In this document: positions 41,385-57,261 of the stretch, piece after piece
Layout of the letters: each line of letters starts with the position of its first letter
How positions within the stretch are numbered: the stretch's first letter is position 1
DNA from: Sulfitobacter sp. M39
GTDB taxonomy: Bacteria > Pseudomonadota > Alphaproteobacteria > Rhodobacterales > Rhodobacteraceae
Length of the DNA stretch: 64,000 nucleotides
NCBI RefSeq assembly: GCF_021735935.1
Contig: NZ_WMDZ01000001.1
Span: 1,302,001 to 1,366,000, forward strand
Direction: 5' to 3'
Notes under the pieces: model-generated
Database searches by the model: none
Seen by the model: the letters and a program-made list of their open reading frames with translations, nothing else
What the model was told of the DNA's origin: nothing
Position numbers and translations under genes: made by a program

Positions 41385-43090
41385 CAAAAGAGAAACGCAA
41401 CCGCGCTTGGTACGGCAAGAATGATCGGGACGGGTTCATTCACCGCAGCTGGATGAAAAATCAGGGCTTTCCCGACCACGCGTTTGATGGCCGCCCCATT
41501 ATCGGTATCTGCAATACATGGTCCGAACTGACCCCGTGCAACTCGGGCCTGCGCGATCTGGCCGAAGGGGTGAAGCGCGGCGTGTGGGAGGCAGGGGGCT
41601 TTCCGGTCGAATTTCCGGTGATGAGCCTTGGCGAGACCCAGATGAAGCCGACCGCCATGCTGTTTCGCAACCTGCTGGCGATGGACGTCGAAGAAAGCAT
41701 TCGCGCCTATGGTATCGATGGGGTGGTTCTGCTGGGCGGCTGTGACAAGACCACGCCGGGTCAACTGATGGGCGCGGCAAGCGTCGATCTGCCGACGATC
41801 GTTGTCAGCTCCGGACCGATGCTGAACGGCAAGTGGAAGGGCAAGGACATCGGCTCTGGCACGGATGTGTGGAAGTTCTCGGAAGATGTGCGCGCGGGCG
41901 AGATGACCTTGCAGGATTTCATGGCCGCTGAATCCGGCATGAGCCGGTCCAAGGGCGTGTGCATGACGATGGGCACGGCCTCCACGATGGCGAGCGTGGT
42001 AGAGGCGATGGGGATGTCACTTCCCACCAACGCCGCGCTGCCTGCCGTTGACGCGCGCCGCATGGCGCTGGCGCATCTGACCGGCAAGCGCATCGTCGAG
42101 ATGGTCGAGGAAGATATCAAGCTGTCACAGGTCGTTACCCGTGCCTCTATCGAGAACGCCATTCTGGCCAATGCCGCGGTCGGTGGGTCGACCAACGCCG
42201 TGATCCATCTGCTGGCCATCGCGGGCCGCGTCGGCATCGACCTGACGCTCGATGATTTCGAGCTTGGGGCGGATATCCCGCTGCTGGTCAACTGCATGCC
42301 CTCGGGTAAATATCTGATGGAGGATTTCTGCTATGCGGGCGGGATGCCCGTGGTGCTGTCCCATCTGCGCGACAAGCTGCGGCCCGCGCAGACCGTCATG
42401 GGCGGGGATATCCTTGCCTATGCCGAAGGGGCTGAATGCTACAACGCGGATGTGATCCGGCCGCTGGATAATCCGCTGCGCCCTGCGGCCGGGTTGAAGG
42501 TGCTGCGCGGCAATATCGCGCCCAATGGGGCGATCGTGAAACCCTCGGCGGCGACGGACGCCTTACTCGAACACGAGGGCGAGGCATATGTCTTCGAGAA
42601 TATCGAGGATATGAAAGCCAATATCGACCGCGAGGATCTGCCGGTGACCGCAGATACGGTTCTTGTGCTCAAGGGCTGTGGCCCAAAGGGCTACCCCGGT
42701 ATGCCCGAAGTCGGCAACATGCCGATCCCCGCGCGGCTGGTCAAAGAAGGCGTGCGCGACATGGTGCGCGTGTCCGACGCGCGTATGTCCGGCACCGCCT
42801 ATGGCACCGTGATCCTGCACGTCAGCCCTGAATCCAACGCAGGCGGCAATCTGGGGCTGGTACAGACCGGCGACCGTATCCGGCTATCGGTGGCGCAAGG
42901 CACATTGGACGTGCTTGTCTCTGACGAGGTGTTGGCACAGCGCCGCGCTGCGTGGGTACCCGAACCGCCCCGATACGATCGCGGTTATGCCAAGCTCTAT
43001 ACCGAGACGGTGTTGCAGGCAGACAAAGGCGCGGACCTTGATTTTCTGGTGGGCAAAGACACCCGCCCCGTCACACGGGAGAGCCACTGA
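41381..43090 (+). CDS. IlvD/Edd-family sugar acid dehydratase (galactonate/arabonate type)
   Basis: A 569-residue Fe-S dehydratase. The presumed cluster cysteines lie in GICNTWSELTPCNSG, LGGCDKTTPGQLM and KGVCMTMGTASTM; DARMSGTAYG near 462 is the C-terminal family signature. It is closest in look to L-arabonate/D-galactonate dehydratases of this superfamily. In this operon it should convert D-galactonate to 2-keto-3-deoxygalactonate, the substrate of the DgoK encoded downstream. L-arabonate could also be used. It overlaps its neighbours on both sides. Confidence 0.9.
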   Translation: MTKEKRNRAWYGKNDRDGFIHRSWMKNQGFPDHAFDGRPIIGICNTWSELTPCNSGLRDLAEGVKRGVWEAGGFPVEFPVMSLGETQMKPTAMLFRNLLAMDVEESIRAYGIDGVVLLGGCDKTTPGQLMGAASVDLPTIVVSSGPMLNGKWKGKDIGSGTDVWKFSEDVRAGEMTLQDFMAAESGMSRSKGVCMTMGTASTMASVVEAMGMSLPTNAALPAVDARRMALAHLTGKRIVEMVEEDIKLSQVVTRASIENAILANAAVGGSTNAVIHLLAIAGRVGIDLTLDDFELGADIPLLVNCMPSGKYLMEDFCYAGGMPVVLSHLRDKLRPAQTVMGGDILAYAEGAECYNADVIRPLDNPLRPAAGLKVLRGNIAPNGAIVKPSAATDALLEHEGEAYVFENIEDMKANIDREDLPVTADTVLVLKGCGPKGYPGMPEVGNMPIPARLVKEGVRDMVRVSDARMSGTAYGTVILHVSPESNAGGNLGLVQTGDRIRLSVAQGTLDVLVSDEVLAQRRAAWVPEPPRYDRGYAKLYTETVLQADKGADLDFLVGKDTRPVTRESH

Positions 43091-43860
43091 TGACCCTCAA
43101 CGCGACATTTCCCGATCTGCGCGACCGGTCGGTGTTCATCACCGGCGGCGGCGCGGGGATCGGTGCCTTTCTGACTGATGGGTTTCTGGCGCAAGGGGCC
43201 AAGGTTAGCTTTGTCCAGCGCAGCGACGCCACCGCGTTTTGCAACGAGATGGAAGAAAAACACGGACAGCGCCCCTTTGCGCAGACCTGCGATATCTCGG
43301 ATATCGCGGCACTTCGGTCCAGTCTGGCCGCAGCCGCCGATGAACATGGCCCTGTCACGGTTTTGGTGAACAACGCCGCCAATGATGCCCGCCACACCGC
43401 CGAGGAGGTCACCGAAGACTTCTGGGACCAGTCGCAGGCGATCAACCTCAAGTCCTATTTCTTCGCCTGTCAGGCCGTGGTCGCAGGGATGCGCGCCGCG
43501 GGCGGCGGGGCCGTGGTGAACATGAGCTCGATCTCGTATATGATGGGGAACGCGGGCTATCCTGCCTATACGACCGCCAACGCCGGCATCAACGGTATGA
43601 CCCGTTCGCTGGCGCGGGAATTCGGGCCGGACAAGATCCGCTTTAACGCGCTGGCGCCGGGGTGGGTGTTGACGGAAAAGCAGATCGAACAATGGGTCAC
43701 GCCCGAAGCACTGGCGGCGCATATTGACCGGCAATGCCTTAAGGATACGTTGAAGCCGCAAGACATCGTGGACGCGGTGCTGTTTTTATCCTCTGCCTCC
43801 AGCCGCATGATGACGGGGCAGTTGATGGCCGTCGATGGCGGCGTCGTGGTCACCGGATAG
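43090..43860 (+). CDS. SDR-family sugar dehydrogenase, probable galactose 1-dehydrogenase
   Basis: A 256-residue short-chain dehydrogenase. The cofactor loop TGGGAGIG is near residue 18, NNAAND near 94, and catalytic S147 and Y160 are in place, but the lysine four residues after the Tyr is N164 (YTTAN), an unusual change. By position between dehydratase and kinase it should oxidise galactose to galactonolactone, completing the pathway with the SMP-30 protein. Its start overlaps the dehydratase stop (TGATG). Assignment of substrate is by context. Confidence 0.82.
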   Translation: MTLNATFPDLRDRSVFITGGGAGIGAFLTDGFLAQGAKVSFVQRSDATAFCNEMEEKHGQRPFAQTCDISDIAALRSSLAAAADEHGPVTVLVNNAANDARHTAEEVTEDFWDQSQAINLKSYFFACQAVVAGMRAAGGGAVVNMSSISYMMGNAGYPAYTTANAGINGMTRSLAREFGPDKIRFNALAPGWVLTEKQIEQWVTPEALAAHIDRQCLKDTLKPQDIVDAVLFLSSASSRMMTGQLMAVDGGVVVTG

Positions 43861-43871
43861 GAAGGGATACC

Positions 43872-44786
43872 GTGCAACACTACGCTGAATGGATCGCTGT
43901 CGATTGGGGCACGTCAAACCTGCGGGTCTGGATGATGGGCGCCGATGGCAAGCCCTTTGCCGCTGACAGGTCCGACAAGGGGATGGCGGGGCTGACGCAG
44001 GACGGGTTCGAAGCTGCCTTGCTTTCGTTGATAGACCCCTACCTAAATCCGGACCATGTGACCCCTGTGATCTGCGCGGGTATGGTGGGCGCCCGCGAAG
44101 GCTGGCGCGAGGCCGCCTACGTCGCCACGCCTTGCGCGCCTCCGGATGCGCGGGCGGCGGTTGCGGTACAAGCCCGTGACCCGCGGATCGCGGTCCACAT
44201 CCTGCCCGGCGTGAAACAGATGGCCGCGCCTGACGTGATGCGCGGCGAGGAAACCCAGATCGCAGGGGTGCTGCACAGTCAGCCGGCGTTTGACGGCATC
44301 CTCTGTCTGCCCGGCACCCACACCAAATGGGTCCACATCAGCGCGGGCGAGATCGTGAACTTCCAGACCTGCATGACCGGCGAGATCTTCGCGCTGCTGG
44401 CCAGCCAGTCGGTCCTGCGCCATTCGGTCACCACGGCAGAGTGGGACGAGGACAGCTTTATCGACGGCGTCACGCAGGCGATGGACAGCCCGCAAAGCTT
44501 CGCCGCCAGGCTGTTTGGCCTGCGTGCAGGGGGGCTGTTGCAGGGCACCCCTGCGGGGGCGGCGCGGGCGCGGCTGTCAGGGTTGCTTGTGGGGCTAGAG
44601 CTGGCCGGCACGCGCCCCTATTGGCTGGGCCGCCATGTCGCCATTCTGGGCGCAGACAGCGTCGCCGCGCATTACCGGTGCGCATTGGCCGCGCAGGGTG
44701 TGCAGGCCGAAACACTGGATAACGCGGGTCTGACGCTGGCGGGCCTGACCTCTGCCTATCGTTCATTGAAAGGGGCCCTTGTATGA
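43872..44786 (+). CDS. dgoK: 2-dehydro-3-deoxygalactonokinase
   Basis: A 304-residue kinase phosphorylating 2-keto-3-deoxygalactonate at C6. AVDWGTSNLRVWMMG near the N-terminus is the phosphate-1 loop of DgoK, and LCLPGTHTKWVHI near 140 plus FQTCMTGEIFALL are family blocks. It starts with GTG (43872), five bases after GGAAGGGA. It overlaps dgoA by four bases. Confidence 0.95.
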   Translation: MQHYAEWIAVDWGTSNLRVWMMGADGKPFAADRSDKGMAGLTQDGFEAALLSLIDPYLNPDHVTPVICAGMVGAREGWREAAYVATPCAPPDARAAVAVQARDPRIAVHILPGVKQMAAPDVMRGEETQIAGVLHSQPAFDGILCLPGTHTKWVHISAGEIVNFQTCMTGEIFALLASQSVLRHSVTTAEWDEDSFIDGVTQAMDSPQSFAARLFGLRAGGLLQGTPAGAARARLSGLLVGLELAGTRPYWLGRHVAILGADSVAAHYRCALAAQGVQAETLDNAGLTLAGLTSAYRSLKGALV

Positions 44787-45391
44787 GCCGCAATATCATC
44801 GCCATTCTGCGTGGCATCCAGCCGCATGAGGCCGCTGACATCTGCGCCGCCTTGATCGACGCAGGCATCACCCGCATCGAGGTGCCGCTGAATTCGCCAG
44901 AACCGCTGAAATCCATCGAAGCGATGGCCCAAACCTATGGGGCCGACGCGTTGATCGGCGCGGGCACGGTGTTGGACGTTGAAAACGTCGCGGCGGTGGC
45001 GGCTGTGGGGGGGCGGATGATCGTCTCTCCGAATGCGGACCCTTCTGTTATCACGGCAAGCAAGGCGGCGGGCATGATGTCCTATCCCGGTGTGATGACG
45101 CCCACGGAATGTTTTGCCGCGCTTAAGGCCGGGGCCGATGGGCTCAAGCTGTTTCCGTCGTTCCTGCTGGGGATCGAAGGGCTAAAGGCGATCAGGGCGG
45201 TGCTTCCGGCGCGGACCGAAACCTATGCGGTTGGCGGCGTCGGCCCGTCGAATTTTGCGGAATGGCTTGCGGCAGGGGTGACGGGTTTTGGCCTTGGGTC
45301 CAGCCTGTATAAACCGGGTCAAAGCGCGGCTGATGTGGCGCAAAGCGCGCGCGCGGCGGTAAGCGCCTATGACAAGGCGGCCCTCTCTTGA
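44783..45391 (+). CDS. dgoA: 2-dehydro-3-deoxy-6-phosphogalactonate aldolase
   Basis: A 202-residue class I aldolase of the KDPG/KDPGal family, splitting the phosphorylated keto acid into pyruvate and glyceraldehyde 3-phosphate. AILRGIQPHEA, the GAGTVLDVENV strand, the Glu in RIEVPLNSPEP and the Schiff-base Lys in DGLKLFPS near 126 are all present. It lies between dgoK and the lactonase gene with overlapping ends. Confidence 0.95.
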   Translation: MSRNIIAILRGIQPHEAADICAALIDAGITRIEVPLNSPEPLKSIEAMAQTYGADALIGAGTVLDVENVAAVAAVGGRMIVSPNADPSVITASKAAGMMSYPGVMTPTECFAALKAGADGLKLFPSFLLGIEGLKAIRAVLPARTETYAVGGVGPSNFAEWLAAGVTGFGLGSSLYKPGQSAADVAQSARAAVSAYDKAALS

Positions 45392-46233
45392 ACGCCACAG
45401 TCTTTGATGCGCGGGCGTGCGTGTTGGGCGAAGGGCCGCTGTGGCACCCCGAACGGGGCCAGCTGTTCTGGTTCGACATCCTCGGCAAAACCCTGATGTC
45501 GCGGCAGGGCGATAAAACGCTGTCGTGGCAGTTTGACGAATGCGTCTCTGCCGCGGGGTGGGTCGATAGGGATACCCTGCTTGTCGCGTCCGAAACCGCG
45601 CTGTGGCGGTTCGACCTAAACGGAGAGGAGCGTTCCCTCGTCGTGCCACTTGAGGCGGATCAGCCGCTGACCCGATCCAACGACGGGCGCGCCGACCCGT
45701 GGGGCGGGTTCTGGATCGGGACAATGGGCTTCAACGCAGAGCGGGGGGCGGGGGCGATCTACCGCTACTACAAGGGCGCGCTGCGACAGCTTTTCGCGGA
45801 GATTACCATTTCGAACGCGATCTGCTTTTCGCCCGACCGACGGTTTGCCTATTACACCGACACGCCCACGCGCCAGATCATGCGTGTGCCCCTAAATGCG
45901 ACAGACGGCTGGCCGTCGGCCCCGCCGGAGGTGTTTGTCGATCTCAAGAAAGGCAAGCGTAACCCCGACGGCGCGGTTGTCGACAGCGATGGCTGCTTGT
46001 GGAACGCGCAATGGGGGGCCGGGCAGGTCGCCCGCTACAGCCCCGAGGGCACCTTGTTGCAGACCGTTGATATTCCCGCAGCGCAGGCCACCTGTCCGGC
46101 CTTTGGCGGTGCGGATCTGCGGACGCTCTTTGTCACCTCAGCCGCGCAGGGCCGTGACGGGGCGGAGGATGGCCAGACCTTCCAGCTTGCAACGGACGTG
46201 CGAGGCCAGCGGGAACACCGGATAATTTTGTGA
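45388..46233 (+). CDS. SMP-30/gluconolactonase-family lactonase
   Basis: A 281-residue six-bladed beta-propeller. It begins at a TTG that overlaps the dgoA stop (TTGA); the family segment ACVLGEGPLWHPERG with the metal-binding Glu follows at once, so no later start fits. SNDGRADPWGGFWIGTMG carries the metal-binding Asn/Asp, and NPDGAVVDSDGCLWNAQWG another. In this operon it should hydrolyse galactonolactone to galactonate. Confidence 0.92.
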   Translation: MNATVFDARACVLGEGPLWHPERGQLFWFDILGKTLMSRQGDKTLSWQFDECVSAAGWVDRDTLLVASETALWRFDLNGEERSLVVPLEADQPLTRSNDGRADPWGGFWIGTMGFNAERGAGAIYRYYKGALRQLFAEITISNAICFSPDRRFAYYTDTPTRQIMRVPLNATDGWPSAPPEVFVDLKKGKRNPDGAVVDSDGCLWNAQWGAGQVARYSPEGTLLQTVDIPAAQATCPAFGGADLRTLFVTSAAQGRDGAEDGQTFQLATDVRGQREHRIIL

Positions 46234-46239
46234 GGCGTG

Positions 46240-48141
46240 ATGAAACGAACCCTAGGGACCTGCTATTACCCTGAACAATGGCCCGAAGAGATGTGGGAAA
46301 CCGACGCCCGCCGCATGGTCGAAGCTGGCCTGACATGGGTGCGCATCGGCGAGTTTTCATGGAGCAAACTAGAACCGCAACCCGGCCAGTATGACTGGGC
46401 GTGGCTGGATCGCGCGATTGACATTTTAGGGGCTGCCGGTCTGCGGGTTGTGCTGGGCACCCCCACCGCCACCCCGCCCCGCTGGATGCTGAAACGCCAC
46501 CCCGACATGCTTGCCGTGGATATTGAAGGGCGTCCGCGCAAGTTCGGGTCGCGCAGGCACTACTGTTTCAGCCACGAGGGTTATCAGCAGGAATGCGTCA
46601 CGATTGCCACGTTGATGGCCAAACGCTATGGCGCGAACCCCCAAGTGGCCGCGTGGCAGATCGACAATGAATACGGCTGCCACGACACGGTGATCTCGTA
46701 TAGTGACGCGGCAGCCCATGCTTTTCGGGGCTGGCTGGCACAACGCTACGGCACCCCCGCCGCGCTGAATGCCGCGTGGGGGAATACCTTCTGGTCGATG
46801 GACTACGACAGTTTCGACGACATCGACCCGCCCAACCTGACCGTGACCGAAGCCAACCCTGCGCATCGTCTGGCGTTCCGGCGGTTCAGCTCGGATCAGG
46901 TGGTGGCATTCAACAGGCGTCAGCTTGACGTGATCCGCGCGCACAGCGCCGCCCCCGTGAGCCATAATTACATGGGCCGGATCACTGACTTTGACCATTT
47001 CGCGGTGGGTGAAAATCTTGATATCGCCACATGGGACAGCTACCCGCTGGGCTTTCTCGAGGATCGGGTCGGCGCGGATGCGGCGCAGCAGCACCGCTAT
47101 GCGCGGCAGGGCGACCCCGACTTTCAGGCGTTCCACCACGATCTTTACCGCGCCGTGGGCAAGGGGCGCTGGTGGGTGATGGAACAGCAGCCCGGGCCGG
47201 TGAACTGGGCCCCGCACAACCCCGTGCCACTGGCCGGTATGGTGCGTCTGTGGACATGGGAGGCCTTCGCCCACGGGGCCGAAGCGGTGTGCTATTTCCG
47301 CTGGCGACAGGCCCCTTTCGCCCAAGAGCAACTGCACGCCGGCTTGCTCCGTCCCGACAGTGCCGACGCTTTCGCGATGGCGGAGGTCCGGCAGGTCGGC
47401 GCAGAGATGGCCAAGGCGCCGGAGGTGCAGCCCGCGCAGGCACCGGTCGCGCTGCTGTTCGACTATGACGCGGATTTCGCATGGGCGACCCAGCCCCATG
47501 GTGCGGACCTAAGCTATTTCGGGTTGGTCTTTCACACCTACAAGGCGCTGCGGCGTCAGGGGCTGTCGGTTGATATCCTGCCCGCCACCTACCGCGATTT
47601 TGACGGCTACGGGCTGGTGATGGCGCCGGGGGTGATGCACATGCCGGACGCCCTGAAACTGGCGCTGGCGGGCAGCGCGGCGGCGGTCGTCTATGGCCCC
47701 CGCACCGGCGCGCGCACGCCCGAGATGGCGATCCCCGTGCCGCTGCCTCCCGCAATCGACGGGTTGGACGTGACGGTCACGCAGGTCGAAAGCCTGCGGC
47801 ATGACATCTCCGTGCCGCTGGAGGGGGGTGGGAAAGTGATCCGCTACCGTGATGTGCTGGACGGCACGGCAAAGGTGATCTTGCGGACCACTGACGCAGA
47901 GCCGGTTGCCATGCGCGACGGGCAGCAGATCTATCTGGGGGGCTGGCTGGATGATGACACGCTCGACCAATTCGTCAGCGGTCTGTGCAGACAAGCAGGG
48001 ATTGACCTGCTGCCGATGCCCGAAGGGGTACGTACCCGCACGACGGGGGGCGAACGGTTCTGGTTCAATTACTCAGATGCAAAAGTGGCATGTCACGGTG
48101 TCGAACTGCCTGCCGCGGGCGTTCTGCGTGTGCCGGTCTGA
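46240..48141 (+). CDS. Beta-galactosidase, GH42 family
   Basis: 633 residues from the ATG at 46240 (a GTG one codon earlier is possible). A TIM barrel has the acid/base E144 in AWQIDNEYG and the nucleophile E315 in WWVMEQQPGPVNWAPHN, followed by the trimerisation and C-terminal beta domains of GH42. No signal peptide, so cytoplasmic. Having both alpha- and beta-galactosidases means the imported substrates probably include both linkages. Last gene of the operon, followed by a strong hairpin. Confidence 0.95.
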   Translation: MKRTLGTCYYPEQWPEEMWETDARRMVEAGLTWVRIGEFSWSKLEPQPGQYDWAWLDRAIDILGAAGLRVVLGTPTATPPRWMLKRHPDMLAVDIEGRPRKFGSRRHYCFSHEGYQQECVTIATLMAKRYGANPQVAAWQIDNEYGCHDTVISYSDAAAHAFRGWLAQRYGTPAALNAAWGNTFWSMDYDSFDDIDPPNLTVTEANPAHRLAFRRFSSDQVVAFNRRQLDVIRAHSAAPVSHNYMGRITDFDHFAVGENLDIATWDSYPLGFLEDRVGADAAQQHRYARQGDPDFQAFHHDLYRAVGKGRWWVMEQQPGPVNWAPHNPVPLAGMVRLWTWEAFAHGAEAVCYFRWRQAPFAQEQLHAGLLRPDSADAFAMAEVRQVGAEMAKAPEVQPAQAPVALLFDYDADFAWATQPHGADLSYFGLVFHTYKALRRQGLSVDILPATYRDFDGYGLVMAPGVMHMPDALKLALAGSAAAVVYGPRTGARTPEMAIPVPLPPAIDGLDVTVTQVESLRHDISVPLEGGGKVIRYRDVLDGTAKVILRTTDAEPVAMRDGQQIYLGGWLDDDTLDQFVSGLCRQAGIDLLPMPEGVRTRTTGGERFWFNYSDAKVACHGVELPAAGVLRVPV

Positions 48142-48205: not shown

Positions 48206-48982
48206 TTACCACGAAGTGATGACGGTCCCGTGGTAGCTTTCGTCGATGAAGGCTTTGATCTCGTCCGAGTGATACGCCTCTAGCAGGGTCTTGACCCAAG
48301 GCGCGTCTTCCTTGCCCTCTTGCACAACGATCACGTTCACATAGGGGTTTTCGGCGCTTTCCATCGCGATGGAATCCTCTTTGGGGCTAAGACCCGAGGC
48401 GATGGCGTAGTTCGTGTTGATCAGCGCCGCATCCAGATCGGCCAGCGAACGGGGCAGCTGCGCCGCGTCGAGTTCCTTGAACGACAGGTCTTTGGGGTTC
48501 TCGGTGATGTCCAGAACGGTGGGGACCAGACCCGCAGCAGGGTCGACCTTGATCATGCCAAGCTGTTGCAGCACCAGCAAGGCGCGCCCGCCGTTGGTAG
48601 GGTCGTTCGGGATGCCAAAGGTCGCGCCTTCTTCAAGCTCGGCGATATCGGTGATCTTGTCCGAATAGATGCCCATCGGCGTGGTGATCGTGTTGCCCAC
48701 AACTGCCAGCGCGAAGCCGCGGTCTTTCATCTGTGCTTCAAGGTAAGGCACGTGCTGGAAGGAGTTCGCCTCGATGTCGCCATCGGCCAGCGCCTGGTTC
48801 GGCACCACATAGTCAGAGAATTCGACAACGTCGATCTCAAGGCCCATCGGTTCGGCCACGCGGGCGACCTCTTCCATGATCTCGGCGTGCTCGCCGGGGG
48901 AAACGCCGACTTTGATCTGCTCGGCCATCAGCGATGTCGCCATAAGCGCGAGGGTAGAGGTCAGGGTCGCAATGCGTAGCAT
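48206..48982 (-). CDS. metQ: Methionine ABC transporter substrate-binding protein
   Basis: A 258-residue NlpA/MetQ-family protein that captures methionine (D or L) for MetNI. IKVGVSPGEHAEIMEEVARV and NSFQHVPYLEAQMKDRG are typical. The signal peptide ends in SLMAEQ and has no lipobox cysteine, so unlike E. coli MetQ it is probably soluble in the periplasm. It follows metI by 49 bases. Confidence 0.93.
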   Translation of the reverse strand: MLRIATLTSTLALMATSLMAEQIKVGVSPGEHAEIMEEVARVAEPMGLEIDVVEFSDYVVPNQALADGDIEANSFQHVPYLEAQMKDRGFALAVVGNTITTPMGIYSDKITDIAELEEGATFGIPNDPTNGGRALLVLQQLGMIKVDPAAGLVPTVLDITENPKDLSFKELDAAQLPRSLADLDAALINTNYAIASGLSPKEDSIAMESAENPYVNVIVVQEGKEDAPWVKTLLEAYHSDEIKAFIDESYHGTVITSW

Positions 48983-49031
48983 GTATATGCTCCTTTAACT
49001 GGGAAACGAAATTGGGAGGAGGAGACGGGCG

Positions 49032-49706
49032 CTATTGCCCGCCGCTTTTGGTGGCGCGTTTGTCGACAGCGGCTGCGATGCGTTCGCCGATCGATTGCAC
49101 AAGCTGCACCAAGACGATGAGGATGATCACGACAACCGCCATAACGTCGGGCATAAACCGTTGATACCCATAGCGAATGCCCAGATCGCCCAGACCTTCG
49201 CCGCCCACGGCACCAACCATGGCGGAATAGCCGATCAGGCTAACGATGGCGAGTGTAAGGCCAAGCGTGATACCGGGCAGCGCTTCGGGCAGCAGCACCT
49301 TGCGGATGATCTGCAACGGGGTCGCGCCCATTGCGCGCGCCGCCTCGATCAGGCCGGACTCAACCTCGCGGATCGCGTTTTCCACCAGACGCGCGATGAA
49401 GGGCACGGTGGCAATCGTCAGCGGCACAATCGCGGCTGTCGTGCCGATCGACGTGCCCGCAACCATCCGCGTGAAAGGGATGATCGCGACCACCAGAATG
49501 ATGAACGGCACCGACCGCGTGGCATTGACCACCAGCCCGAGCACCTTGTTGACCCACGGGGCCGAGAGCAGCTCGCCGCGTTGCGAGGTTGCCAGAAACA
49601 GCCCCAAGGGCAGGCCAAGCAGCGTCCCCAAAAGCGCCGAGATGGCGACCATGTAAAGCGTCTGGCCCGTGGCCTCGATCAGTAGGTTGATAAGGTTAGC
49701 CGACAT
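49032..49706 (-). CDS. metI: Methionine ABC transporter permease
   Basis: 224 residues from the ATG at 49704-49706, which lies eight bases after GGAGGT inside the end of metN; a TTG six bases earlier is too near that site. Five hydrophobic helices and the coupling loop ESGLIEAARAMGATPLQIIRK near residue 125 mark the MetI family. It overlaps metN by 11 bases. Confidence 0.93.
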   Translation of the reverse strand: MSANLINLLIEATGQTLYMVAISALLGTLLGLPLGLFLATSQRGELLSAPWVNKVLGLVVNATRSVPFIILVVAIIPFTRMVAGTSIGTTAAIVPLTIATVPFIARLVENAIREVESGLIEAARAMGATPLQIIRKVLLPEALPGITLGLTLAIVSLIGYSAMVGAVGGEGLGDLGIRYGYQRFMPDVMAVVVIILIVLVQLVQSIGERIAAAVDKRATKSGGQ

Positions 49707-50751
49707 AGCCAAGCACCTCCGTCATAAGCCCGTGGCTTTCCAAAAATGAACGCGCTTCTGCGGCTTTGGCCACAGGCAGCGATACCAGCAGGTTGCCGAA
49801 GGGGCGGGTGCCGATTTCCTCGACCGCGCCGGCAAGGATATTGACCGGAATGCCCATGTCCTGCGTCAGCCGCGCCAGCATCGGGTCGGTGGCGTGCTGG
49901 CCCGCAAAGGTCACGCGGATCACCTCTTCGCCGCCCTGCGCGGGGGCGTTTGGGACCAGACGATCCTTGACGAAAGCGGGCAGGGTGACGCCCGTCACCC
50001 CCGACAGGAAAGACCGCGTGGTCGCATGCTGAGGCGCGGTGAAGATATCGTAGGTCTCGCCATGTTCGACGATGCGGCCCGCGTCGATCACGGCGACGTG
50101 GCTGGCGATGTCACGGACCACCGCCATCTCGTGGGTGATCAGCAGGATGGTCAGCCTCAGTTCGCGGTTGATGTCCTTGAGCAGCGACAGCACCGTTTGC
50201 GTCGTTTCAGGGTCCAGCGCGGATGTCGCCTCGTCCGACAGCAGCACTTTGGGGCCGGTGGCCAGTGCCCGCGCGATGCCGACGCGTTGCTTTTGCCCGC
50301 CCGACAGCTCTGCCGGATAGCGTGTGGCGTGCGCGCTAAGTCCGACCCGTTCGATCAGGTCGGCCACGCGGGGTTTGATTTGCGATGACGGCACACCGGC
50401 GATTTCCAGCGGTAGGGCGATGTTGCCCGCCACTGTGCGCGAGGCGAGCAGGTTAAAGTGCTGAAAGATCATCCCCACATCGCGGCGGATCGCACGCAGC
50501 TTGGACCCTTTGGCGGCCCCCACATTCTGCCCGCCCACCAGAACCGAGCCCGCCGTAGGCCGCTCGATCCCGTTGACCATGCGCAGCAGCGTCGATTTGC
50601 CAGCCCCCGACCGTCCGATGATGCCGGTGATTGATCCCGGCTCCATCGCCAAAGAGACGCCTTCAAGCGCCGTGACAGTCGTGCCGCCGGATTTGGAATA
50701 GGCTTTGCCCACGTTCTCAAACGTGATCGAAGCGCCGTTGGGTTCTGTCAT
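49696..50751 (-). CDS. metN: Methionine ABC transporter ATP-binding protein
   Basis: 351 residues from the ATG at 50749-50751 (MTEPNGASITFENVGKAYSK). Walker A GRSGAGKST, signature LSGGQKQRVGIARAL and Walker B VLLSDEATSALD are followed by a C-terminal NIL domain (VIRVTFAGQHATDPMLARLT) that senses methionine and inhibits the transporter. I looked for a SAM riboswitch in the 118 bases upstream and recognise none. Confidence 0.95.
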   Translation of the reverse strand: MTEPNGASITFENVGKAYSKSGGTTVTALEGVSLAMEPGSITGIIGRSGAGKSTLLRMVNGIERPTAGSVLVGGQNVGAAKGSKLRAIRRDVGMIFQHFNLLASRTVAGNIALPLEIAGVPSSQIKPRVADLIERVGLSAHATRYPAELSGGQKQRVGIARALATGPKVLLSDEATSALDPETTQTVLSLLKDINRELRLTILLITHEMAVVRDIASHVAVIDAGRIVEHGETYDIFTAPQHATTRSFLSGVTGVTLPAFVKDRLVPNAPAQGGEEVIRVTFAGQHATDPMLARLTQDMGIPVNILAGAVEEIGTRPFGNLLVSLPVAKAAEARSFLESHGLMTEVLGYVG

Positions 50752-50869: not shown

Positions 50870-53800
50870 TCACAGGTCCAGCACCAGATGCCCACCCGCT
50901 GCCGCCGCGCGCGACTGGCAGGTGATCAACGTGGTTTCACGCTGCGCCTGTGACAGCACATAATCGCGGTGATCGGCGTCGCCCTCGACCAGCCCGCAAG
51001 CGCAAACCCCGCAGATCCCGTCGGCGCATTTCACATCCACGGGCACGCCTGCCTCTGTCAGCATATCGGACAGGCTGCGGTCGGCGGGGACGTGGATGTC
51101 TTTGCCGGTCTTGGCCAGATGGACCGTAAAGCTATGGTTCTCGCGCGGGGGGGCTTCGGGGACGGCGAAATATTCGATGTGACACTGATCCTCGGCAAAG
51201 CCCGCGCGGGCGGCGGCGGTCATTGCGGCCTCCATATAGGCGGGGGTGCCGCAGGCGTAGGCGTGACTGCCCGCAGCATGGCCCGATAGGATCGTGTCAA
51301 ACTCTGCCCGGCTGCCCTGATCGCTGACGTGCAGCAGGGCATGGGCGGCCCAAGGGGCGGCAGCGATCTCGGCCGCAAAGGCCAGATCAGCGGCGGTGCG
51401 GGCAGAGTAATGCAGCGCGAAATCGCGGCCCAAATGGTGCAGGCGGTGCGCCATGGCGATCATCGGCGTGATACCGATGCCGCCGCCCATCAACACGCTG
51501 AAGGGGGCGTCTTCGATGAGGGGGAAATGGTTGATCGGGCGGGCGGCGAAAATCTTGCGCCCCTGCGTGAAGATACGGTGCATCAGAGCGCTGCCGCCGC
51601 GGCCCTGATCCTCGCGCTGGACGGCAATGACATAGCGCGACCGGTCCGATGGATCGCCGCACAAAGAATATTGGCGCAGGTATTCAGGCGCGATCACCAC
51701 ATCCAGATGCGCCCCTGCCTGCCACAGGGGCAGATCGGCCCCGTCGGGATCGCGCAGTTCATACCGTGTGATGCCGTCGCTTAACACATCCGCGCGGGTG
51801 ACGGTCAGCGGCAACACCGGACTATCCGCCAGCGGTTTGAGCGCAGGGACCAGCCCTTGTGTGTCTCCGCTTGCGACACGCGCGCGGTGTGTGGCGGCGG
51901 GGATCATCGCGCCATAGGCGCGGATGCCGGCCTCGCGGTCCATCGGGTCGGGGTAGGGGTAGGGATGCGGGGCGAGCGGCGCAGGGTAGACGGCCAGCGT
52001 CTGGTCCTGCGCGCGCAGCTTCAGGTCTTTTTGCAGACCGCGGGTGTTCACCGGCTTGTCGGTGGGGCGGTAGCCGCCGTCGTCCTGCACCTCTAGATCC
52101 CACCACCATTTCTTGACGGGGTTGATGTCGCCACGGTCCAGCAGATCATCCAGCTTGGCAAGGGCGGGCGCTGTGGCGGGCAGCTTCATCGCGGTCCAGC
52201 GCCATACACTGTCGGCCAAGATCCCCTCAAGGTTCCACGGGCAGGTCTTCATGCAGCGCCCGCACATGGCACCGCCTTCGGTCGTGATCCGGTAGGTGGC
52301 GCATTTCTGGCTGTCGGATTTCCAGATTTCGTAGCCGTTGAACATCAGCTTCGGCCCCGCCGTGATCGCCCCCGAGGGACATTCCCGCGCGCATTTCTGG
52401 CAGCTTTCGCAAAATTTCTGCAGGCCGAAGTCGATCGGCTTGTCATGGGTCATCGGCAGGGTGGTCGTCACCGCGCCCGATTTCAGACGCGGGCCAAGAT
52501 AGGGGTTCAGGATCACTTCGCCGATGCGGCTGACCTCGCCCAAACCCGACAGCAGCAGCAGCGGGGGTTGCAGCACATCGCCATCCATCACCGTATGCGC
52601 CTTGGCCGGATACCCCAGATCGCGGATCAACCGCGCCAGCACGCCGCCCACTAGGCTGAACCGCAGATAAGCGCGCATGGATTGCGCCACGCTGATCCAA
52701 TCATCGCCCGAGGCCCCCTCCATCGTGTCGAAACCCTGATCGATAACGAGGCTGATTGCCTGATCATGGGGCGGGTCGATCGCGGTGCCGGTGGCGTCAT
52801 GGCTGTACCACGCCCAATCGGGACAACGGCTGACGCCCACGGCATCGGCCCCAAGGAAATAGGCAACCGCCTTGACCATCTCTGCCGCCTGTTGCGGGGC
52901 GGGGGCGGTTTGCGTTTCGGCAGCTTGCCCGTCTTGCAGCAGACCAAAGGCCCCAAGCGCGCGCCGCTGCGCCATCGAGGTCGGCGTCTTGCGGATGTAG
53001 CGCCCGCCGGTGGCCCCGTCTTGCAGCTTTTTGCCCATGTCCCCGAACAGCGCACGGCTGAACATATCGGTACGCTTGGGCAGACGCGGGATGCGCGGTT
53101 CGTCCATATAGGTCGTTGGGCTGTCCACGCGTTTGAGTTTCTCAAAAGGCTGCGCGCCATCGACAAAGCGCCGTGTTGCATAGGCGGGCGCTGTGCGGGG
53201 CAGGGCGGCGGCGGCCAAGGGGCGGTCACAGGCCAGATCCATCGCCATGGTGACGGCGGCCAACGAAAAGCGCGTGCCGACAAAAGGGGCGGTCAGCTGA
53301 CCGTCTTGGGGCAACGCCAGACCCGCCGCGACCGCCAGCTGGTTCAGGTCCACATCGCTTGCCGTCATCGTGTGCCCGCGCGCCGGACGCCCCAGCAGGC
53401 GGATGTAATTCGACAATACCGCCGCCGATTCCGCGGCCAGTAGCGACGACCGGTGATCCTCCATCCCTGCGATCCATGTCGCACCGGGTTCATCCTGCTC
53501 GACCGCGCGGGGGTGCGCGAAAAGCAGCACCAGCGCATGGGTATGGCCTGCGATGTCCGTCTCGGGTGCGGTGACGGAGTCGCGCAGGTCGGCCATGATC
53601 GCATCCACACCAGAGGCGAGCGTCTTGACCTGGCGCGTCTGCAAATCCTGCGCCAGCCGCGCCACATCCGCATTGCGCAGCGGCTGTGCCAGATGGTGGT
53701 CGGGGGCAAGCTTGCAAATCCCCACCATCGTCGCATCGTTGAAAAGGGCAAACGCCTTGAGATGCTGCGCCCGCTCGGTCAGATCGGCGGAGATCTCGGC

Positions 53801-54013
53801 CACGGCCTTGTTCACCAGACCCTCGCGGATCGCATCCAGCATGGCGCGGTGATCCCGCGTGGCTTGTGCCAGCGGACGCGCGTCGCCCGTCACGCCCAAG
53901 GGGGTGAAGGCCGGCACCGGCCCTGCAACACCCTCCGCCCGCCGCAGCTTTTCAGTCGGGTAGGCACCCATATGGATGGGGCGGTTTTTGCGGGAACGCA
54001 GCCGTGGGGTCAT
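50870..54013 (-). CDS. Self-sufficient B12-dependent reductive dehalogenase fused to a PDR-type reductase
   Basis: A 1047-residue fusion. Residues 1 to about 620 match non-respiratory reductive dehalogenases (BhbA/NpRdhA type): no Tat signal, a SRCPDWAWYSH segment, catalytic-site Y449, K511 and R575 at the same spacing as Tyr426, Lys488 and Arg552 of NpRdhA (recalled numbering, offset 23), and eight Fe-S cysteines (C535, 538, 541, 545; C571, 584, 587, 591). After a linker, about 735-1047 form a phthalate-dioxygenase-reductase-like module: FMN motif RQYSLCGD (780), NAD(P)H motif GGGIGITPM (843) and a plant-type [2Fe-2S] site (C996, C1001, C1004, C1032). It should reduce halogenated, probably brominated, phenols in the cytoplasm using NAD(P)H. 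GAGG precedes the ATG. Substrate is inferred. Confidence 0.9.
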   Translation of the reverse strand: MTPRLRSRKNRPIHMGAYPTEKLRRAEGVAGPVPAFTPLGVTGDARPLAQATRDHRAMLDAIREGLVNKAVAEISADLTERAQHLKAFALFNDATMVGICKLAPDHHLAQPLRNADVARLAQDLQTRQVKTLASGVDAIMADLRDSVTAPETDIAGHTHALVLLFAHPRAVEQDEPGATWIAGMEDHRSSLLAAESAAVLSNYIRLLGRPARGHTMTASDVDLNQLAVAAGLALPQDGQLTAPFVGTRFSLAAVTMAMDLACDRPLAAAALPRTAPAYATRRFVDGAQPFEKLKRVDSPTTYMDEPRIPRLPKRTDMFSRALFGDMGKKLQDGATGGRYIRKTPTSMAQRRALGAFGLLQDGQAAETQTAPAPQQAAEMVKAVAYFLGADAVGVSRCPDWAWYSHDATGTAIDPPHDQAISLVIDQGFDTMEGASGDDWISVAQSMRAYLRFSLVGGVLARLIRDLGYPAKAHTVMDGDVLQPPLLLLSGLGEVSRIGEVILNPYLGPRLKSGAVTTTLPMTHDKPIDFGLQKFCESCQKCARECPSGAITAGPKLMFNGYEIWKSDSQKCATYRITTEGGAMCGRCMKTCPWNLEGILADSVWRWTAMKLPATAPALAKLDDLLDRGDINPVKKWWWDLEVQDDGGYRPTDKPVNTRGLQKDLKLRAQDQTLAVYPAPLAPHPYPYPDPMDREAGIRAYGAMIPAATHRARVASGDTQGLVPALKPLADSPVLPLTVTRADVLSDGITRYELRDPDGADLPLWQAGAHLDVVIAPEYLRQYSLCGDPSDRSRYVIAVQREDQGRGGSALMHRIFTQGRKIFAARPINHFPLIEDAPFSVLMGGGIGITPMIAMAHRLHHLGRDFALHYSARTAADLAFAAEIAAAPWAAHALLHVSDQGSRAEFDTILSGHAAGSHAYACGTPAYMEAAMTAAARAGFAEDQCHIEYFAVPEAPPRENHSFTVHLAKTGKDIHVPADRSLSDMLTEAGVPVDVKCADGICGVCACGLVEGDADHRDYVLSQAQRETTLITCQSRAAAAGGHLVLDL

Positions 54014-54038: not shown

Positions 54039-54060
54039 ATAGTTGTCCTAGATCAACTAT
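54039..54060. promoter_or_regulatory. Palindromic operator between dehalogenase and MarR genes
   Basis: ATAGTTG-tcctagat-CAACTAT has perfect seven-base arms. It lies 26 bases before the dehalogenase ATG and 32 bases before the MarR start, so a protein bound there would block both promoters. TAGTTG/CAACTA arms are common in MarR-family operators. Binding by the adjacent MarR protein is inferred. Confidence 0.65.
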
Positions 54061-54091: not shown

Positions 54092-54577
54092 ATGAAGTAT
54101 TCATGCCTTATGACCGGACCCGAGAACACCTCTGCCTCCTATAGTCTGCACGACAGGCTGGGCTTTCGCGTGTCGCGGCTCGCCGCCGCCATGAGAGCCA
54201 GTCTGGATGCAGAGCTTTCGCAGCTTGGCCTGACACGGTTGGAATGGTGCGTCTTGGCCAGTATCGCGCTGGAAGGCATCACCGCACCCTCTGGTATCGC
54301 CGAGAATATCGGCATCACCCGCCCCACGGCGTCGCGGACGTTCAAGCAGATGCGCGACAAAGGCTGGCTGGTGCAGAACCTGACAGAAGGCGACGGGCGC
54401 GCCCGTGCGATCACGCTGACCGAGGCGGGGCAAGACCTACTGGCGCGTGCGCGGGTGCTGGTCGACGCGCATCAGGCGCGGTTTCTGGACAAGCTCGACC
54501 CCCAAGCGGCTGCGCATTTCCTATCCGCGCTGGATGCGCTGCTTGAAGGTGTGCACGACCGGTTCGACGATCCGTAG
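54092..54577 (+). CDS. MarR-family transcriptional regulator
   Basis: 161 residues from the ATG at 54092; an ATG at 54110 is equally possible since neither has a clear ribosome site. The winged helix reads LTRLEWCVLASIALEGITAP and SGIAENIGITRPTASRTFKQ, then the wing NLTEGDGRARAITLTEAG. MarR proteins of this kind release DNA on binding phenolic or aromatic ligands. It diverges from the dehalogenase gene across a 22-bp palindrome, so it is probably its substrate-responsive repressor. Confidence 0.9.
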   Translation: MKYSCLMTGPENTSASYSLHDRLGFRVSRLAAAMRASLDAELSQLGLTRLEWCVLASIALEGITAPSGIAENIGITRPTASRTFKQMRDKGWLVQNLTEGDGRARAITLTEAGQDLLARARVLVDAHQARFLDKLDPQAAAHFLSALDALLEGVHDRFDDP

Positions 54578-54583
54578 GGTGGT

Positions 54584-55042
54584 TCAGGCCACCACGGGAA
54601 ACACGTTCGACTGTTTCAGCACGCCATAGGCAAAGCTGGAATCGATCGACGCGATGCCGGGGATGTTGTGGAGCTTGTGGCGCACGAATTCCTCGTAGCT
54701 TTTCAGATCCTCGACCAGCACGCGCAACAGATAATCCTCGCTGCCGGTGATGACATAGCAATCGAGGATCTGTTCGGTCTCGTGCACCTTCTTCTCGAAC
54801 AGTTTCACCACCTCGCCCGTGTGGCTGCTCAGCCGGATGCGCACCAGCGCGGTCACGGGCAGCCCGTAGGCGCGTTCATCCACAATCGCGGTATATCCCT
54901 TGATCACGCCCTTTTCTTCCAGCGCGCGGGTGCGCCGCAAGCAGGGGGAGGGCGACAGATTCACCTGAGCCGCCAGATCCTGATTGGTCAGCCGCCCGTT
55001 GCGCTGCAGCGCTTTGATGATCTCGCGATCTTTGCTGTCCAT
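54584..55042 (-). CDS. Lrp/AsnC-family transcriptional regulator
   Basis: A 152-residue regulator. The N-terminal helix-turn-helix is DREIIKALQRNGRLTNQDLA and QVNLSPSPCLRRTRALEEKG; the C-terminal RAM domain has the effector loop ITGSEDYLLRVLVEDLKSYE. It converges with the MarR gene (six bases apart) and diverges from the EamA exporter gene, whose expression it probably controls in response to an amino acid. Confidence 0.93.
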   Translation of the reverse strand: MDSKDREIIKALQRNGRLTNQDLAAQVNLSPSPCLRRTRALEEKGVIKGYTAIVDERAYGLPVTALVRIRLSSHTGEVVKLFEKKVHETEQILDCYVITGSEDYLLRVLVEDLKSYEEFVRHKLHNIPGIASIDSSFAYGVLKQSNVFPVVA

Positions 55043-55156
55043 TTTAGCCCTATAAGGGCAGGATATGCCCTAAAATCATATTTTTACGCAATCATTAGCA
55101 AGCATCTGCCCGCGGGTACAGCGTAAAACAGCGCAGATACAACGCGCAGGAATAGT

Positions 55157-56077
55157 ATGCTTAACTCTCCCTCACTGCCCGCCGCGCATGGATTTGGTCC
55201 GCGGCAGATCCCCCTTCGGCCCTTGGTTGGCTATCTCGCGATTGCGGTGACCGTGCTGGTCTGGGCGGGGTTCGCGCTGTCCACCCGTGCCGCCAGCGGG
55301 GCGCAGCTGACGTTTGGCGATGTGGCGCTGATCCGGTCGGGTATTCCGGCGCTGTTCTTTGTACCCTTCCTGCCGAAACGTATCGCTGTGTTAAGGCGGT
55401 TGCCCGCGCATCGCTGGCTGATGATCGCGGCGGGGGCGGGGCTGCCGTTCTTCTGGCTCGCGGCTATGGGCGGGGCGCAGACCTCGGCCACGCATGTGGG
55501 GGCGTTGATTGCCGGGACGACACCGGTGTCGGTGGCTGTTCTGACGTGGGTGATCTACCGCCAGCGCCCCGCGGTGTTGCTGCCGCTGGGGGTCATCCTT
55601 GTGGGGGTGGCGGCGCTGATTGGGGCCTCGGGCAATTTGGCCGCAGGCAGTTTGACCGGCGTGGCGCTGCTGCTGTCGGCCAGTCTGCTGTGGGGATGCT
55701 ATACGCTGGGGCTACGGGGCAGCGGCTTGGACCCGATTGGCTGCGCGCTGGTGCTGGCACTGCCGTCCACGCTGGTACTGCTGCCGCTGCTTGCCACGGG
55801 GGTGTTGCCCAGCAATCTGACGCAGGTGCGACTGGCCGAGGCGATGCCGTTCATCCTTGCCCAAGGGGTCGGCGTCGGCCTTGTCTCGAGCCTGACCTAT
55901 GCCATCGCCATCGCCCGCCTTGGTGTCGCGAAATGTGCCGCGATCGGGTCGCTCGCCCCTGCGATTGCGGCGGTGCTTGCCGTGCCGCTGCTGCACGAGG
56001 CCCTGACGCTTGGCACGATTTTGGCCGTTCTCATTATTTGCGCCGGCGTCATGCTGGCCAACCGCCCCAAGGAGTAA
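55157..56077 (+). CDS. EamA/DMT-family exporter
   Basis: A 306-residue inner-membrane protein with ten predicted helices in two EamA repeats (first from about 15, second from about 165). AAMGGAQTSATHVGALIAGTTP and SSLTYAIAIARLGVAKCAAI with PAIAAVLAVPLLHEAL are the usual blocks. Such proteins often export amino acids. It precedes the aminotransferase gene by five bases and diverges from lrp. Confidence 0.9.
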   Translation: MLNSPSLPAAHGFGPRQIPLRPLVGYLAIAVTVLVWAGFALSTRAASGAQLTFGDVALIRSGIPALFFVPFLPKRIAVLRRLPAHRWLMIAAGAGLPFFWLAAMGGAQTSATHVGALIAGTTPVSVAVLTWVIYRQRPAVLLPLGVILVGVAALIGASGNLAAGSLTGVALLLSASLLWGCYTLGLRGSGLDPIGCALVLALPSTLVLLPLLATGVLPSNLTQVRLAEAMPFILAQGVGVGLVSSLTYAIAIARLGVAKCAAIGSLAPAIAAVLAVPLLHEALTLGTILAVLIICAGVMLANRPKE

Positions 56078-56082
56078 CCCCG

Positions 56083-57261
56083 ATGCTCGACGCGCTTGCC
56101 GCCCTTCCCGAAGACCCGATCTGGGGACTAACCTCTGCCTTTCGCGCCGATCCGCGCAGCCACAAGATCGACATGGTCATCGGCGTCTACCGCGATGACA
56201 AAGGGGCCACGCCGAATATGAAGGCGGTGCGCATGGCCGAGCGCGCCTTGGCGCAGGACAGTGCGCCGAAAACCTACCGCGCTTTGGCGGGCAATGCGGT
56301 GTTCAACGCGGGCATGGCGCGGCTGGTCTTGGGCGATGCGCCCGCGCGGATCGCGCGCAGCCATGTTATCCAGACGGTCGGCGGGACAGGAGCCTTGCGC
56401 GTGCTGGGGGATATGCTGGCGAGCCTGCGCCCCGACACCACGGTCTGGAGCACGGACCCCGGCTATGTGAACCACCGCCCGATATTCGAGGGTGCCGGGC
56501 TGACGCTGCAGTTGTATCGCTGGCAGGCCAAGGGCGACGCGCTGGATCTTGATCGCGTGCTCGCGGATCTGGCGGCGGCGAAACCGGGGGATGTGGTGCT
56601 GCTGCACGGCTGCTGCCACAACCCCACGGGCATCGATCCTGATGCGGATATGTGGCATGCGCTGGCCCGATTTTGCGCGGCGCGGGGGCTGATCCCGTTG
56701 ATCGATATTGCCTATCAGGGCTTTGGCCGTGGGCTAGACGAAGATGCGGCGGGGCTGCGGGTCATGGTCGAGGCGGTGCCCGTGGCGATGGTTGCGGCAA
56801 GCGGGTCCAAGAACATGGGGCTATATTGCGAACGTATCGGGGCGGCGATGGTGCTGGGGCCGGATGCGGGGTCCATCGCCCATGTGGGCCGCCACCTAGA
56901 GACATTGACCCGCGCGAATTATTCGATGCCCCCCGAACATGGTGCCGCTGTCGCCTGCCACGTCTTTGACACCCGCGCCATCTGGGAGGAAGAGCTCAAC
57001 AGCATGCGCGCCCGTGTCCAATCGCTGCGGCAGCAGATGGCGGATGCGCTGGCCGCGATTGATGCGGCCCCCGCGTTTCAGGCGTTGCGGCACCATCAGG
57101 GGATGTTTTCCCTGCTGCCCCTCGCGCCCGACCAGATGGAGAGCTTGCGCCATCACCACGCGATCTATGGCACGGCCACCGGTCGGATCAATATCGCCGG
57201 TCTGCGCCGCACGCAGATCGAACAGGTCGCGGCGGCGCTTCGGGATGTGTCACAGGCGTGA
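56083..57261 (+). CDS. Aromatic/aspartate aminotransferase (class I)
   Basis: A 392-residue PLP enzyme of the AspC/TyrB group. The ATG at 56083 follows AAGGAG and starts MLDALAALPEDPIWGLTSAF. DMVIGVYRDDKGATP, the GCCHNPTGID loop, and the PLP lysine in AASGSKNMGLYCERIGA near 245 are seen. It transfers amino groups between aromatic amino acids or aspartate and keto acids. Same transcript as the EamA exporter, under a divergent Lrp regulator. Confidence 0.93.
   Translation: MLDALAALPEDPIWGLTSAFRADPRSHKIDMVIGVYRDDKGATPNMKAVRMAERALAQDSAPKTYRALAGNAVFNAGMARLVLGDAPARIARSHVIQTVGGTGALRVLGDMLASLRPDTTVWSTDPGYVNHRPIFEGAGLTLQLYRWQAKGDALDLDRVLADLAAAKPGDVVLLHGCCHNPTGIDPDADMWHALARFCAARGLIPLIDIAYQGFGRGLDEDAAGLRVMVEAVPVAMVAASGSKNMGLYCERIGAAMVLGPDAGSIAHVGRHLETLTRANYSMPPEHGAAVACHVFDTRAIWEEELNSMRARVQSLRQQMADALAAIDAAPAFQALRHHQGMFSLLPLAPDQMESLRHHHAIYGTATGRINIAGLRRTQIEQVAAALRDVSQA

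Follow-up and report, generated by a model that had tools for sequence, protein, structure and literature searches.

Reductive dehalogenases (RdhA) fused to a reductase are a known enzyme type, represented by BhbA of Comamonas sp. 7D-2 and JtRdhA of Jhaorihella thermophila, and the class and its distribution are partly in print. Here we compare with them a gene, rdhA, located on the minus strand at 50870..54013 of a 64,000-nucleotide stretch of the Sulfitobacter sp. M39 genome (hereafter the window; positions 1,302,001 to 1,366,000 of contig NZ_WMDZ01000001.1), and we add neighborhood evidence on the substrate, a short-linker lineage, an operator and a prediction concerning position 874. The BhbA protein of plasmid pBHB, which we take to be WP_015585978 (L101, listed without that name), shares the full-length fused architecture of the window protein at 50.3% identity over 1042 columns, but it has a linker that the window protein lacks, and its gene lies on a plasmid typed as conjugative, whereas the window gene lies on a 3.06-Mb contig. 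The BhbA gene neighbors encode protocatechuate 4,5-dioxygenase, a tripartite tricarboxylate binding protein and porins, with a pobA-cluster gene upstream.

JtRdhA (WP_104007082) resembles the window protein in joining an RdhA to a phthalate-dioxygenase-reductase-like module, in having no twin-arginine translocation (Tat) signal and in its Tyr/Lys/Arg triad. It works under air with NADPH at 1:1 coupling, dehalogenates the bromo- and iodophenols tested and not the tested chloro- and fluorophenols, and is fastest with 3,5-dibromo-4-hydroxybenzoate and 3-bromo-4-hydroxyphenylacetate, with 2,6-dibromophenol at 6.8% (PMC10463259). An earlier reading made from the sequence alone (the sequence-only reading) had mentioned a fused enzyme from Jhaorihella, which is indeed in print as JtRdhA, and had considered the substrate and physiology of the class mostly open; with the kinetics, aerobic coupling and substrate table of the same source, they are less open than that. 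Ros_A3X954 of Roseobacter sp. MED193 is, like the window protein, from the Roseobacter group and without a Tat signal; it is reported to be an oxygen-sensitive debrominase that acts on 2,6-dibromophenol, and it differs in architecture: its cluster motifs at 283-294 and 337-345 lie approximately 250 residues earlier than those of the window protein, so that it is without the long N-terminal part (PMC13101508). Putative bhbA homologues are described there as widespread in the Roseobacter clade. The structurally characterized NpRdhA of Nitratireductor pacificus pht-3B (4RAS, 6ZXU-6ZY1) shares the dehalogenase module of the window protein at 41% identity over ~650 structurally aligned residues, with the same triad and dicluster, but has no fused reductase; its Y426, K488 and R552 are implicated in catalysis (PMC7565698).

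The product of rdhA is predicted with high confidence to be a cytosolic enzyme of the BhbA/JtRdhA type, a self-sufficient reductive dehalogenase serving catabolism. This confidence covers the enzyme chemistry; catabolic use in the window strain is less certain. The parts of the gene are as follows.

50870..54013, minus: rdhA, fused reductive dehalogenase and phthalate-dioxygenase-reductase-like protein, 1047 aa (open reading frame, family models, PDB matches)
51869..54013, minus: corrinoid / 2x[4Fe-4S] dehalogenase module, ~residues 1-715 (alignment to NpRdhA)
53549..53692, minus: segment of residues 108-155, unmatched in NpRdhA and occupied in the BhbA row too (gap between two phmmer stretches; family alignment)
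53189..53197, minus: point after residue 274 at which the ~18-residue linker is missing (family alignment, linker-free tree)
52667..52669, minus: codon of Y449, equivalent to the proton donor Y426 of NpRdhA (NpRdhA alignment, conservation)
52481..52483, minus: codon of K511, equivalent to NpRdhA K488 (NpRdhA alignment, conservation)
52289..52291, minus: codon of R575, equivalent to NpRdhA R552 (NpRdhA alignment, conservation)
52241..52411, minus: eight [4Fe-4S] cysteines, residues 535-591 (domain matches, conservation)
50873..51814, minus: flavin mononucleotide (FMN) / NAD(P)H / [2Fe-2S] reductase module, residues 734-1047 (match to phthalate dioxygenase reductase 2pia)
51392..51394, minus: codon of A874, putative NADPH 2'-phosphate region (family alignment; role inferred from the fold family)
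50918..51028, minus: four [2Fe-2S] cysteines, residues 996-1032 (domain matches, conservation)

The open reading frame (ORF) runs uninterrupted from 54013 to 50870, at exactly the coordinates given in the sequence-only reading, while stops interrupt the opposite, plus strand. The protein scores 188.7 bits against the reductive dehalogenase model TIGR02486 of NCBIfam, above the cut-off of 160.35, and only 23 bits against the epoxyqueuosine reductase (QueG) model TIGR00276, for which the cut-off is 200. A phmmer search of the PDB returned NpRdhA (4ras/6zxu) at E ~1e-146, and the C-terminal third (residues 734-1047) matched 2pia; a Foldseek structural search gave matches including NpRdhA, PceA and flavin reductases. 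By these models the protein combines a TIGR02486 reductive dehalogenase with a phthalate-dioxygenase-reductase module, and it is not a QueG. A module of this FMN / NAD(P)H / [2Fe-2S] kind occurs in phthalate dioxygenase reductase (2PIA) and in the reductase part of CYP116B, which partner oxygenases and not a corrinoid enzyme. The N-terminus, MTPRLRSRKNRPIHMGAYP..., inspected by eye with no predictor run, shows neither a twin-arginine motif nor a hydrophobic stretch, and no RdhB-type membrane anchor gene was recognized among the neighboring ORFs of at least 100 aa, a check made without an RdhB model. These two features of respiratory RdhA proteins are thus lacking, which supports the non-respiratory nature proposed in the sequence-only reading.

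Alignment to NpRdhA is gapless between window residue 439 and residue ~647, and Y449, K511 and R575 therefore fall on NpRdhA Y426, K488 and R552, with the spacing of 62 and 64 residues that the sequence-only reading had given; the triad is thus placed at the corrinoid site by sequence alignment. On this point and on the distinction from QueG, the checks proposed with the sequence-only reading favor it. Outside the window lineage, the equivalents of all three are invariant (217 of 217 aligned rows), as are those of NpRdhA F291, S422 and M423. The twelve cluster cysteines, said earlier to be all present, are so: those at 535, 538, 541, 545, 571, 584, 587 and 591, which lie within Fer4_16/Fer4_7 domain matches, and those at 996, 1001 and 1004 are invariant in the same 217 rows, and the position of C1032 is Cys in 216/217, with one gap. 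NpRdhA differs at F290, A419 and N452, which are M, V and V in the window protein.

Three further genomes of the genus carry orthologues, at 98, 95 and 93% identity, and the ratio of nonsynonymous to synonymous rates (Ka/Ks) among the orthologues of the four species is 0.067-0.083, so that rdhA is under strong purifying selection. One protein cluster, 98% identical, holds 693 member sequences. Within Sulfitobacter, 53 of 62 genomes give an E = 0 match covering both the dehalogenase and the reductase part (manual count); the looser figure of 59/62 at E <= 0.001 takes in plain reductases. Across the family, sampled at nearly one genome per genus, 151 of 394 genomes match at E <= 1e-100, at least a few of these matches being partial. 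Eight plasmid records, including pBHB, contain a match to 80% or more of the query. The gene, its fold relationship, its conserved residues and its constraint are direct observations, and the protein is a well-conserved and very probably active enzyme of its known class. In three genus genomes (G008, G015, G018) the N-terminal part of the dehalogenase match is spread over separate frames or contains a stop; these may be broken genes or assembly errors. Relatives at 59-63% identity were also found in contigs labeled Granulosicoccus or Granulosicoccaceae (L008, L014, L021, L022, L025, L036, L041, L066 and L079), and these relatives sit among alphaproteobacterial ones in a FastTree tree, which suggests transfer or binning error.

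With the cell's own NAD(P)H as reductant, the enzyme very probably removes bromine or iodine from phenolics. Hydride from NAD(P)H would pass to the FMN of the C-terminal module and be split into single electrons, which would travel through the [2Fe-2S] cluster and the two [4Fe-4S] clusters to cobalamin. An ortho-bromo- or ortho-iodophenol, its hydroxyl bound by K511, R575 and S445, would then be reduced, with Y449 donating the proton and the halide departing. The dehalogenated phenol would most likely enter aromatic catabolism. The substrate is most likely a para-substituted ortho-halophenol, such as a 3-halo-4-hydroxybenzoate, and in part of the relatives a 3-halo-4-hydroxyphenylacetate.

The substrate proposal draws on the genes around the relatives' loci. 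The loci comprised the best 80 of at least 591 relative-encoding stretches (at least 597 matched), five of the eight near-full plasmid matches, 20 loci of genus genomes and the window; the 106 loci less four duplicates gave 102, and 73 of these had at least 7.5 kb of flank on both sides. Neighboring ORFs were clustered and cluster representatives were identified using family models; clustering can split families, and the counts are therefore lower bounds. Representatives scoring above cut-off were hmgA, fumarylacetoacetase, maleylacetoacetate isomerase, HpaD, HpaE, HpaH, HpaR and PobA, whereas HpaG-like and HpaF-like neighbors scored below it; a sulfatase (Pfam) and a tripartite ATP-independent periplasmic (TRAP) binding protein were identified as well. 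The hmgA gene was present in the fetched flank of 17/102 loci (15/73 with full flanks), hpaD in 5, pobA in 6, a TRAP transporter in 14 and a sulfatase in 5. Taken together, hmgA, hpaD or pobA lay nearby in 22 of the 102 loci and in 19 of the 73 with full flanks, so the association of rdhA with these genes is frequent and not general. In two loci, pobA starts ~8 bp (L072) and ~13 bp (L077) past rdhA.

These neighbors point to tyrosine-derived and 4-hydroxybenzoate-type halophenols as substrates in the relatives concerned, and they fit the two best substrates of JtRdhA. The marine bromophenols guessed at in the sequence-only reading were too vague, given the preference of JtRdhA for the two para-substituted acids over 2,6-dibromophenol (PMC10463259), and given the 22 loci near homogentisate, homoprotocatechuate or 4-hydroxybenzoate genes. 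Among the listed titles and abstract openings of the literature, we found no report linking rdhA to homogentisate or homoprotocatechuate genes. The position of hmgA varies, upstream or downstream of rdhA and on either strand, and its presence in the neighborhood needs 10 changes on the FastTree tree, a figure that is an indication only, as 37 of 115 inner branches of that tree are open and the changes were counted without a shuffle control. The arrangement therefore does not look like one inherited block. Among genus genomes with both genes, hmgA lies within ~5.5 kb of rdhA in 11/51 (manual count); in Sulfitobacter litoralis the two are neighbors. The physiological role of fused dehalogenases in the sea is not settled, though their chemistry is known; with the gene in 53/62 genus and 151/394 family genomes, and about a fifth of loci beside tyrosine- or 4-hydroxybenzoate-type genes in several arrangements, it becomes a testable proposal that common marine aerobes turn organic bromine and iodine back into halide in this way. 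A sulfatase-family gene ends ~11 bp (L063, 8284-9990), ~6 bp (L081, 8313-9989) and ~32 bp (L124) upstream of the dehalogenase gene in three loci, which suggests sulfated halophenols as substrates there.

Several points weigh against a catabolic dehalogenase in the window strain. As to the enzyme, activity, cofactors, halide range, substrate and regulation are what we infer from the observations above. The predicted structure is weak (mean predicted local distance difference test score 76, with residues 313-327, 336-348 and 476-508 below 50), and it is weak where it matters, so that the active-site geometry rests on the alignment. JtRdhA, unlike the window protein, is biochemically characterized, and the two were compared through its published description. 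Oxygen tolerance is not to be presumed, since Ros_A3X954, of other architecture, is reported as oxygen-sensitive (PMC13101508). As to context, no ring-cleavage gene was recognized among the neighbors of the window rdhA, hmgA, hpaD and pobA are all missing from the vicinity of rdhA in 80 of the 102 loci (in 54 of the 73 with full flanks), and the window genome lacks both HpaD and hmgA, the latter being present in 58/62 genus genomes.

The points of context would fit detoxification, in which the enzyme dehalogenates toxic halophenols, bromophenols among them, without the window strain growing on the product. The rdhA gene stands with a MarR regulator in place of recognized ring-degradation genes, and its presence in most genomes of the genus would fit a general protective role too. 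Against this, the window genome encodes PobA, which would give dehalogenated 4-hydroxybenzoate an outlet, and rdhA stands among ring-degradation genes in a fifth to a quarter of loci. We regard detoxification as less likely than not. The window genome also encodes 4-hydroxyphenylpyruvate dioxygenase and cobN; 4-hydroxyphenylacetate would have no outlet in the strain by either pathway tested. In this genome the 4-hydroxyphenylpyruvate dioxygenase gene lies at G000:C1:2730036-2731061 (L134 8016-9266, minus). The nearest relative, G020, carries hmgA and rdhA on separate contigs (C3 and C1).

A second alternative concerns halotyrosines, whereby bromo- or iodotyrosine would be imported by a MetNIQ-type transporter, transaminated by the aromatic amino acid transaminase encoded at 56083-57261 and dehalogenated by the rdhA product. 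The transaminase, an Lrp-type regulator and an EamA transporter are next door, and part of the family is tied to homogentisate and homoprotocatechuate genes, each an end of tyrosine breakdown. However, the MetQ beside rdhA is the only MetQ/NlpA match in the window genome and thus probably belongs to an ordinary methionine importer, metNIQ was seen to adjoin rdhA only in the window lineage (four species), and the genome has the 4-hydroxyphenylpyruvate dioxygenase but no hmgA. The route is unlikely, and MetNIQ as a dedicated halotyrosine importer was dropped as the leading idea on the first two of these grounds.

The window protein belongs to a short-linker clade. Relative to BhbA and most relatives it is without ~18 residues after residue 274, and this linker (~18-21 residues) is absent in 52 of 222 aligned rows, the window included. 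In the FastTree tree of 120 rows, the linker trait needs three changes and the window lineage, on a stem of 0.49, lies near the root, apart from most short-linker rows. This placement was set aside in favor of a 44-row mixture-model tree computed without the linker columns, in which the four window-lineage rows group with 11 short-linker rows at a Shimodaira-Hasegawa-like approximate likelihood ratio test (SH-aLRT) value of 100; short-linker row L057 stands apart, the lineage stem is 0.92, and the root was placed on BhbA-type rows without a non-fused outgroup. We read this as one main linker loss, the window lineage having evolved fast. In this lineage, seven positions differ from a residue that at least 97% of other rows share. 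Position 874 is Arg in 203/217 relatives and Ala in all five window-lineage sequences; the replacement may alter NADPH preference. That the protein has turned into a non-dehalogenase, such as a QueG-like reductase or an inactive homologue, would accord with the long stem and the seven changed positions, but is most improbable given that all catalytic residues and cluster cysteines are retained, the QueG score is far under cut-off and purifying selection is strong.

A broader and tentative reading, which we consider rather doubtful as a whole, joins these strands to the catabolic dehalogenase. Fused RdhA proteins would be common in aerobic marine Rhodobacterales, and their main role would be bromine or iodine removal, under MarR control, from tyrosine-derived phenols (3-halo-4-hydroxyphenylacetate and halotyrosines) before these enter the homogentisate and homoprotocatechuate pathways. 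The short-linker branch of the window would have lost this outlet in the present strain, and possibly its NADPH preference through the change of Arg to Ala874, and would hence use another phenol or NADH.

The features flanking rdhA are as follows.

54039..54060, no strand: inverted repeat ATAGTTG-N8-CAACTAT, probable MarR operator (arms identical, spacer variable in four genomes)
54110..54577, plus: divergent marR, start ATG at 54110 or 54092 (Pfam MarR_2, start codons)
48206..50751, minus: metN-metI-metQ transporter genes, 118 bp downstream of rdhA, probably unrelated (family models, genome MetQ search)

The regulator gene and the perfect inverted repeat between marR and rdhA were observed directly, and the repeat at 54039-54060 is probably a MarR operator. 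The divergent MarR would probably repress rdhA from this site and be released by a phenolic ligand. In the four lineage genomes the repeat arms are identical and the spacer differs. A search with arms TAGTTG/CAACTA and a spacer of 6-10 found the repeat only upstream of the four lineage genes, i.e. in 4 of 100 loci with upstream DNA, with four matches in 2.0 Mb; confined to the window lineage, it is uninformative on the wider family. Allowing two mismatches in the window alone gave two matches, one of them exact (the operator), and 10 of 100 shuffles reached two, so the evidence for the operator is its conservation across genomes and not the count. MarR-type genes of three clusters lie near rdhA in 23/102 loci, a figure that leaves out the MarR genes of the window and of L106, which fell in a further cluster, although another clustering placed them together with MarR1. 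No cobalamin riboswitch or other Rfam element was found in the window at the gathering score.

Beyond marR, the window at 54584-57261 encodes the Lrp-type regulator, the EamA transporter and the aromatic amino acid transaminase (NF006719, above cut-off). On the other side, a 634-aa protein at 46237-48141 had no NCBIfam match at E 1e-30, and the stretch at 41381-48141 holds a cluster for sugar-acid catabolism that includes a dihydroxy-acid dehydratase family protein and a 2-dehydro-3-deoxy-6-phosphogalactonate aldolase.

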